From Verrucomicrobiota bacterium (GTDB taxonomy: Bacteria; Auribacterota; JABMQX01; JAFGEW01), in assembly GCA_016931415.1 (NCBI GenBank), contig JAFGEW010000092.1, positions 1 to 64,000 on the forward strand: a DNA stretch of 64,000 nt. The letters run 5' to 3'. The notes below the pieces were generated by a model. That model was not told the origin of the DNA, did no database searches, and saw nothing but the letters and a program-made list of their open reading frames with translations. Positions 30,517-32,628 of this stretch are shown one piece after another; position 1 is the first letter of the stretch, and each line of letters starts with the position of its first letter. The position numbers were made by a program, and so were the translations under genes.

Positions 30517-30951
30517 GTGATAACCATCTCCGCGCGCGTTCAGTACGCTTGTCTCGCCGTGCTGGAACTCGCAAAGCATACCGGAAGCCCGAGGCCGACA
30601 CGCATCGAAGAGATCGCGACAGAACAAGGCATTCCGAAACAGTTCCTTGTCCATATCCTACTGCAAATGAAGCAGAAAGGGATTCTCGCCAGCGTCCGCG
30701 GTGTCGGCGGTGGATACGCACTGGCCAAGCCGCCGTCGGAGATCACCGTGGGCGACGTCGTACGCGCCGTCGGATCGACCCTGACGACGCTGGAAGGCAG
30801 ATCAAGCGGCCGGGCCGGGGAGAACAAGGCAAACGCTGTCTTCTTCTCACTGTGGAGAAAGGTGGAGCAGGAGGCCATCGGCGTGCTAGACAAAGTCAGG
30901 TTCGACGAGTTGCTCCGGGGGCAAGCCAACTCGCCGGAGTATGTCATCTGA
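30517..30951 (+). CDS. Rrf2-family transcriptional regulator
   Basis: A 144-residue winged-helix regulator. The N-terminal 'SARVQYACLAVLELAKH', the recognition region 'RIEEIATEQGIPKQFLVHILLQMKQKGILASVRGVGGGYALAKP' (recognised in segments) and 'ITVGDVVRAV' define Rrf2. The three clustered cysteines that bind Fe-S in IscR are absent, so it is closer to the CymR type that controls cysteine metabolism. Translation starts at GTG after GAGGTGA. It lies 62 bp upstream of cysteine synthase on the same strand, which fits a role in sulfur assimilation. Confidence 0.9.
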   Translation: MITISARVQYACLAVLELAKHTGSPRPTRIEEIATEQGIPKQFLVHILLQMKQKGILASVRGVGGGYALAKPPSEITVGDVVRAVGSTLTTLEGRSSGRAGENKANAVFFSLWRKVEQEAIGVLDKVRFDELLRGQANSPEYVI

Positions 30952-31013: not shown

Positions 31014-31952
31014 ATGGGCAAGGTTTACCAAAGCATTGTAGACACGGTCGGCAACACGCCGCTCGTCAAGCTCAACCGGGTCACCAAGGAAGACGGCTGC
31101 GTCGCCACCGTGGCGGCGAAGCTGGAGTTTTTCAACCCGCTCAGCAGCGTCAAGGACCGCATCGCGGTGGCGATGATTGAGGCGGGCGAGACCTCTGGCG
31201 CGCTGCAGCCGGGCGTTGAGATTGTCGAGCCGACGAGTGGGAACACGGGCATTGGTCTGGCCTTCGTAGCCGCAGCGCGCGGGTACAGGTGCCGGCTGTT
31301 CATGCCCGAGACGATGAGCGTCGAGCGGCGCGCGCTGCTCAAGATGCTGGGCGCCGAGGTAGTGCTCACGCCGGGCGCCGAGGGCATGACAGGCGCGGTG
31401 CGGCGCGCTGAGGAGTACATCGAGACACACCGCAACACGTTCATGCCGCAACAGTTCGTCAATCCGGCTAATCCGGCCATCCACCGCACGACCACCGCCG
31501 AGGAGATCTGGCGCGACACCGAGGGCCGGATCGACATCTTCATCGCCGGCGTGGGCACAGGCGGCACGATCACGGGCGTGGGCGAGGTGCTCAAGGAGCG
31601 CAAGCCCGGCGTTCGCATCATCGGGCTCGAGCCGGCCGGTTCGCCCGTACTTTCGGGCGGCGAGGCAGGCAAGCACCGCATCCAGGGCATCGGCGCAGGC
31701 TTCGTGCCCGCGGTGCTCAACACCAGCGTCATCGACGAGATCATCCTGGTTCAGGACGACGACGCCTTCCGGACCGCGCTCCGGGTCAGCGCGACGGAGG
31801 GCGTTCTCTGCGGCGTCTCGTCGGGGGCGGCGGCCTGGGCCGCCCTTGAAGTAGGCAAACGGCCGGAAAACGCCGGCAAACTCATAGTCGTTGTGTTTCC
31901 CAGCGCCGGTGAGCGCTACATCAGCTCGTTCAACCTCGCCGTTGACGGCTGA
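31014..31952 (+). CDS. cysK: cysteine synthase (O-acetylserine sulfhydrylase family)
   Basis: A 312-residue PLP enzyme that makes cysteine from an activated serine and a sulfur donor. The PLP lysine is Lys47 in 'NPLSSVKDR', the phosphate/substrate loop is '[13 protein letters not shown]', and '[17 protein letters not shown]' and '[12 protein letters not shown]' are conserved. It sits between the Rrf2 regulator and a MoaD-NIL gene. That context raises the possibility that it takes sulfur from a carrier-protein thiocarboxylate like CysM, rather than free sulfide; the sequence alone does not settle this. Confidence 0.95.
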
Positions 31953-32020: not shown

Positions 32021-32063
32021 TAGAGCTGGTTTTGTGATGTTCTGTTTGTCCGGGAGGGTTCAG

Positions 32064-32573
32064 ATGCCCGTTGTGGTCAGGATTCCTGAGGCGCTGCTTG
32101 CGCTTACCGCCGGCGAGCACGAAGTGACCGCCGAAGGGAACACGGTCAGCGAGCTGTTTGACGACCTGGACAAGCGCTACCCCGGAATCCGCCGCTGGGC
32201 GTTTGATGGCGAGGGTGCGCTCCGCTCGTACGTGAGCGTATTCGTCAACCGCTGCGAAGTCGATTCGCCGGCAGGGCCGTCGGGCACCGTGTCGCCCGGC
32301 GACTACGTGTCGATCCTGCCCGTGATCGCCGGCGGAGCCAAGACGTCGCGCAAGCTCTACCTGACCTTCCCCCAGGAGCTGATCCGCGAGCCGATCATCT
32401 TCCGCATCGGCCACGAGTTCAGTGTTCTCACCAACATTCGGGGTGCGAGCGTCTCGGACAACGTCGGTCTCGTAGCCCTCGAGATCGAGGGCGAGCCCAA
32501 GGAGATCGACCGGGCGGTCGACTGGCTCAAGGGCAAGGGCGTCAAGGTCGAGCCGCTTCCCGACGGAAGCTGA
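32064..32573 (+). CDS. MoaD/ThiS-like sulfur carrier fused to a NIL domain
   Basis: A 169-residue two-domain protein. Residues 1-91 are a MoaD/ThiS beta-grasp domain ('ELFDDLDKRYPGIRRW', 'VSVFVNRCEV', 'VSPGDYVSILPVIAGG'). Its Gly90-Gly91, normally the C-terminus that carries a thiocarboxylate, is followed by a NIL domain (about 95-165: 'RKLYLTFPQELIREPIIFRIGHEF', 'ASVSDNVGLVALEIEGEPKEIDRAVDWLKGKGV', recognised in parts). NIL domains occur in MetN and in the ferredoxin-linked sulfide-dependent homocysteine pathway. The ATG at 32064 follows GGGAGG; the frame opens at 32034. Location after cysK points to sulfur transfer for cysteine or homocysteine synthesis. Confidence 0.88.
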   Translation: MPVVVRIPEALLALTAGEHEVTAEGNTVSELFDDLDKRYPGIRRWAFDGEGALRSYVSVFVNRCEVDSPAGPSGTVSPGDYVSILPVIAGGAKTSRKLYLTFPQELIREPIIFRIGHEFSVLTNIRGASVSDNVGLVALEIEGEPKEIDRAVDWLKGKGVKVEPLPDGS

Positions 32574-32595: not shown

Positions 32596-32628
32596 AACGG
32601 CCTCCAGATCCGTCTGGAGGCCGTTTTG
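32596..32628 (+). terminator. intrinsic terminator after the MoaD-NIL gene
   Basis: A perfect 13-bp stem (AACGGCCTCCAGA at 32596-32608, complement at 32613-32625) with a 4-nt loop and trailing T residues follows the stop codon by 22 bp. It separates this gene from the convergent GH172-like gene. Confidence 0.85.

Follow-up and report, generated by a model that had tools for sequence, protein, structure and literature searches.

A gene of the window (the whole stretch of DNA that was analyzed, 64,000 nucleotides) encodes a MoaD/ThiS-type sulfur carrier fused to a NIL domain. We hold with moderate confidence that the protein is a carrier of the MetO/CysO type with a methionine-sensor-like NIL domain behind its Gly-Gly, that its family feeds an enzyme of the MetM type, and that the copy in the window is an orphan that has diverged from the rest of this family.

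The MoaD-NIL gene and its product

The fusion gene is located on the + strand at positions 32064..32573, encodes 169 amino acids plus a stop and is the only copy in its own genome. The open reading frame and its Gly90-Gly91 (32331..32336, +) were exactly as claimed in a preliminary description of this DNA. The MoaD/ThiS-NIL fusion proposed there was also confirmed, as both Pfam domains scored over their cut-offs: ThiS (residues 13-91) reached 38.9 bits against a cut-off of 22.5, and NIL (residues 99-163) 47.3 bits against one of 24. The sulfur-carrier domain was assigned to residues 1-91 (32064..32336, +) from Pfam ThiS, a column comparison and terminal branch length. It is joined by the linker AKTSRKL (residues 92-98, 32337..32357, +) to the NIL domain (residues 99-163, 32358..32552, +), identified by Pfam and by a fold match to the C2 domain of MetN. 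The open reading frame is real and not a chance one, with full-length homologues at 36-50% identity in many phyla. GC content by codon position was 0.69/0.48/0.81 in the MoaD part and 0.64/0.38/0.90 in the NIL part, both in line with the adjoining genes.

The ATG at 32064 is preceded by what reads as a good ribosome-binding site, the Shine-Dalgarno-like GGGAGGG at 32052..32058 (+), 5 bases 5' of the start. Downstream of the gene, a GC-rich hairpin followed by TTTT (32596..32627, +; RNA fold -26.5 kcal/mol) is a probable intrinsic terminator, given its strong stem with four T; the consensus terminator scan requires five T and missed it. The consensus promoter scan found no separate promoter for the MoaD-NIL gene.

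AlphaFold predicted two confident domains for the full fusion protein (mean pLDDT 86, pTM 0.51) and placed Gly-Gly in the inter-domain loop, between strands 81-86 and 94-103. The closest solved folds of the MoaD half were CysO of M. tuberculosis (3dwg/3dwm) and of Amycolatopsis (4n6e), and its best sequence matches were also CysO proteins. For the second half, the closest solved fold was the C2 domain of MetN. A NIL-domain profile run against the PDB found MetN chains only, and the model of the window NIL domain (pLDDT 93) superposed on the MetN C2 domains of 3tui and 3dhw, both MetNI structures, with a TM of 0.84-0.90. Asn124 (codon 32433..32435, +) aligned exactly with Asn295 of E. coli MetN, a residue needed for L-methionine binding (PMC12357092); this Asn was conserved in 99% of 84 NIL domains. 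Because sequence, fold and Asn all match MetN C2, we infer that NIL is a sensor of methionine or a related amino acid. In MetN the C2 domain shuts the transporter, whereas here a sulfur carrier bears the NIL domain, for which ligand binding is predicted.

We also considered 1v8c, a MoaD-related protein of Thermus thermophilus, as a solved MoaD-NIL. Foldseek aligned its full chain, and it likewise has a second small domain behind an internal Gly-Gly. However, it was outside the best 50 matches of the NIL-only model and its second domain has no sequence match to NIL, and it was rejected.

The MoaD-NIL family and its operons

We scanned one genome per species, obtained more than 500 related places and analyzed the best 80, a set biased to the closest relatives; in a sample of 384 genomes, 18 had a long match. 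The operon of MetM-type enzyme, carrier and NIL occurred in Deltaproteobacteria, Nitrospirae, Omnitrophota, Aquificota, Verrucomicrobia, Planctomycetota and other lineages. In plasmid records no annotated MoaD-NIL was found, as the MoaD half alone gave matches. Conservation of Gly-Gly, on which the preliminary description depended, was complete: it was present in all of approximately 100 homologues, and the MoaD domain always ended in (P)xIAGG.

The two domains formed one protein at 45 loci and were encoded by two adjacent genes at 39. At the split loci MoaD ended 0-8 residues past Gly-Gly and NIL was the next gene. On the MoaD tree the state switched approximately 10 times, against 33 expected with shuffled labels. 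Since the split form works with a nearly free Gly-Gly, most simply the fused form would require cleavage at its internal Gly-Gly, one of the two options in the preliminary description, and this invariant pair is the expected site of cleavage and of thiocarboxylation. A comparable case is MoaX, the fused MoaD-MoaE of M. tuberculosis, which also has an internal Gly-Gly and is cleaved directly after it, between Gly82 and Ser83, a step required for its activity (PMC4326299). Its partner domain is MoaE and its product molybdopterin, unlike the NIL fusion. JAB peptidases have been predicted to cut fused ThiS/MoaD proteins (Iyer et al. 2006, PMC1779556).

The genomic context of the homologues was strongly non-random. 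We counted genes for threonine-synthase paralogues (ThrC-like genes) within 5 kb of the fused and split loci, and such a gene was present in 96 of the 98 two-domain loci (44/45 fused, 38/39 split and 14/14 further genomes). The ThrC-like partners formed a single clade (89/89), separate from true ThrC. A representative gene order was ThrC-like, MoaD-NIL, ThiF, CysM, JAMM, so the neighbours suggested in the preliminary description, JAMM, E1 and cysteine synthase, do occur at homologue loci. ThiF (E1) was close to 34/45 fused and 10/39 split loci and JAMM to 28/45 and 12/39, respectively, and CysK/M was close to most fused loci and missing from most split ones. When only well-flanked loci were counted, JAMM accompanied 17/24 fused and 8/18 split loci (p = 0.12, relatedness ignored), a weak excess that is suggestive only.

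The Rfam scan of 27 loci found a SAM riboswitch at the head of the operon in nine, 64 to approximately 270 bases 5' of the first gene; none occurred elsewhere in the approximately 400 kb scanned. In Streptomyces, a SAM riboswitch lies upstream of metM and the adjoining metO encodes a sulfur carrier, according to the account in PMC12172450, which cites Hasebe et al. 2024. This route makes homocysteine from O-phosphohomoserine and the thiocarboxylated carrier. The homologue operons resemble this arrangement, with a carrier beside a ThrC-like enzyme and a riboswitch upstream; NIL does not figure in that account of MetM/MetO. Our label MetM-type is based on context and homology, the likeness to Streptomyces MetM being one of description. 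Given the ThrC paralogue and the SAM riboswitches, the family therefore fits the MetM/MetO route rather than CysO/CysM, and most likely it makes homocysteine from O-phosphohomoserine via the carrier thiocarboxylate. Thus, from the earlier proposal of a CysO/CysM or homocysteine route, the homocysteine part most likely holds for the family and CysO/CysM as its main pathway does not.

Some loci showed other arrangements. In three Nitrospirae loci and others of this phylum the order was ThrC1-MoaD-NIL-ThrC2, with the paralogues in separate clades; the second, downstream ThrC fell in another clade in 20/20 cases. Two loci from the phylum of the window carried a SAM riboswitch followed by ThrC-like, MoaD, NIL and CysC genes, with MoaD and NIL split, unlike in the window.

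The window copy and its genome

Within the MoaD-NIL family the window copy stands out as a diverged orphan. Its MoaD domain was the most divergent of 101 in the tree, with a terminal branch of 1.37 (next 0.76, median 0.07), and the branch of its NIL domain measured 0.55. The MoaD domain has lost Thr9, Pro10, Arg45, Arg55-Phe56, Asn58, Glu64-Asp65 and Arg67-Phe68, each conserved in 93% or more of the 86 others compared, with the conservation of Thr9 and Pro10 inflated by the scan pattern. The NDEDIRF surface is gone. After the loss of approximately nine conserved positions the domain may no longer be activated. The copy keeps SIxPxIAGG as well as the NIL positions that are highly conserved. That Gly-Gly persists in a domain which is changing fast elsewhere argues that it still matters.

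The genome was 98.9% complete with 4.5% contamination, and absences reported from it are bounded by assembly gaps. The fusion is its sole ThiS-family protein and its sole NIL protein. The first of these facts would suit a function as MoaD for molybdopterin synthase or as ThiS for thiamine, but no match to MoaE was found in the genome and the closest relatives resemble CysO rather than true MoaD or ThiS; we rejected this function as highly improbable. The preliminary description had also likened the NIL domain to ferredoxin-linked homocysteine synthesis. It matches MetN C2 instead, and no NIL-ferredoxin, or any NIL besides the fusion, was found in the genome, so a DUF39/NIL-ferredoxin route was discarded here. 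At one locus from the class of the window, DUF39-like and NIL-ferredoxin genes form a pair to which a third gene is linked, and therefore homocysteine routes vary within this class.

Two genes precede the fusion gene on the same strand, as had been described: an Rrf2-family regulator of 144 amino acids with a GTG start (30517..30951, +; Pfam Rrf2 111 bits) and cysK of the O-acetylserine sulfhydrylase A type (31014..31952, +; TIGR01139 434 bits, cut-off 351). The gaps are 62 bases between Rrf2 and cysK and 111 bases between cysK and MoaD-NIL. The best PDB match of the window CysK was CysK1 of M. tuberculosis (2q3b, 421 bits), and M. tuberculosis CysM was not among its best 60 PDB matches. By these matches the gene is of the ordinary, OAS-dependent CysK1 type and not of the CysM (O-phosphoserine) type. 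No SAM riboswitch was found at the window locus, and only a tRNA is close by.

A variant of CysO/CysM, in which the cleaved and thiocarboxylated MoaD gives sulfur to the adjoining cysteine synthase to make cysteine under the Rrf2 regulator, would agree with the direct adjacency to cysK, with the CysO proteins as best sequence and fold matches, and with the CysK/CysM and JAMM genes of many homologue operons. We consider it unlikely. CysE is present in the genome, so that with a CysK1-type enzyme cysteine synthesis free of a carrier is available; the constant neighbour of the homologues is the ThrC paralogue, with CysK/M missing in most split loci; and the window copy no longer has the CysO-like surface NDEDVRF. 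Among solved carriers CysO of the M. tuberculosis CysO/CysM/Mec system is the closest, and JAMM, E1 and CysK/M also occur at the homologues' loci. However, CysO ends at Gly-Gly and carries no NIL, whereas in the window protein Gly-Gly is internal and the neighbouring synthase is of the CysK1 type.

The Rrf2 protein has one Cys only, near the N-terminus, and lacks the Fe-S ligand cysteines. Against the CymR model it scored 67 bits, under the cut-off of 195, and at best it would be CymR-like. Six Omnitrophota loci also carry an Rrf2-family gene without Fe-S cysteines, placed after the ThrC-like and MoaD-NIL genes, with cysK upstream in four of the six; the Rrf2 link is thus not unique to the window. 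An Rrf2 regulator without these cysteines beside cysK brings to mind the CymR-CysK pairing of a regulator with CysK. The main rival for the window copy is accordingly a role as regulator only, with NIL sensing methionine or cysteine and acting on CysK or with Rrf2 and MoaD serving as a scaffold. We regard it as rather unlikely. The resemblance to CymR-CysK speaks for it, and so do the conserved NIL positions, which were kept while the MoaD branch became by far the longest, and the absence of both a dedicated E1 and MetM from the genome. On the other side, SI-P-IAGG was kept exactly, which a mere scaffold would not need, and the regulator falls short of the CymR score.

No MetM-type ThrC paralogue was found in the window genome. 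Its one ThrC adjoins thrB, is approximately 30-31% identical to the MetM type, and is nearer to the second Nitrospirae clade than to the MetM-type clade (41% vs 30%). The JAMM and E1 partners expected from the preliminary description do not adjoin the window copy, and neither does MetM. There is no dedicated E1; the single E1 of the genome lies inside an unrelated cluster for ubiquitin-like conjugation on contig C83. No JAMM was found close to the window gene, and a lone JAMM, whose HSHP...D motif is intact, is encoded on contig C31, between the MtaB and MnmA genes. As the usual partners are missing from the window locus, the protein, if it is still a carrier, must rely on partners encoded elsewhere.

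The cluster on C83 (locus L028, approximately 5.7-12.5 kb, +, outside the window) comprises Ubl, E1 (ThiF), JAB, FHA, Prok-RING and E2 (UQ_con) genes. The Ubl is of the YukD type and ends in ITAGG-HSREP, the JAB protein has a membrane segment, the FHA protein is a membrane protein, and the cluster also encodes zinc-finger membrane proteins.

Both the CysE/CysK and the MetX/MetY routes are complete in this genome. In the HcyS/MetY route reported for Wolinella succinogenes (cited in PMC5764234), the sulfur of homocysteine comes from a protein thiocarboxylate, with MetY as acceptor. It shares thiocarboxylate sulfur donation with the route proposed for the family, with MetY and not a ThrC paralogue as acceptor, and to our knowledge it has no NIL fusion. 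An HcyS-like donation to the O-acetylhomoserine sulfhydrylase MetY of the window genome would gain from this precedent and from MetX standing beside MetY (TIGR01326 664 bits). We find it rather improbable, as MetX-MetY is on another contig where the carrier gene is absent, and MetY uses free sulfide in most bacteria.

Proposed mechanism and significance

Under the reading that we prefer, a protease of the JAMM type, often from the same operon, would cut the family's fused protein after the position of Gly91. A ThiF/MoeB-type E1 would then convert the freed Gly to a thiocarboxylate. The carrier would donate its sulfur to the adjoining MetM-type ThrC paralogue, which would form homocysteine from O-phosphohomoserine. 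By its likeness to MetN C2, NIL would form a dimer that binds methionine or a related amino acid, and release or use of the carrier would thereby respond to the end product, in a direction that we can only suggest; the step gated could be cleavage, charging or docking. Where NIL is encoded as a separate gene it would act likewise in trans. If the window copy is still a carrier, its acceptor would, at our best guess, be the adjoining CysK or the MetY of the genome, with activation by the single E1 and cutting by the lone JAMM, both in trans.

A bolder version is that methionine on a NIL dimer controls both the cutting and the charging of Gly-Gly, as post-translational feedback on homocysteine synthesis in operons that are often under SAM riboswitches, and that in the window lineage the module moved to CysK/MetY with a borrowed ubiquitin-type E1. 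We offer it as a speculation with a small chance of being right.

Two Sulfurihydrogenibium loci (Aquificota) carry the gene trio ThrC-like, MoaD and NIL. For Aquifex aeolicus, a member of this phylum, PMC5764234 states that no homocysteine route is known, and the MetM-carrier-NIL operon of Aquificota may bear on this missing route.

In summary, these results suggest that the fusion represents a widespread version of a methionine route that was described recently, and that its added domain plausibly provides feedback. A methionine-sensor-like domain on a sulfur donor would, if true, be a novel point of feedback control. The window copy represents a late stage, at which the usual partners were lost and Gly-Gly was retained.
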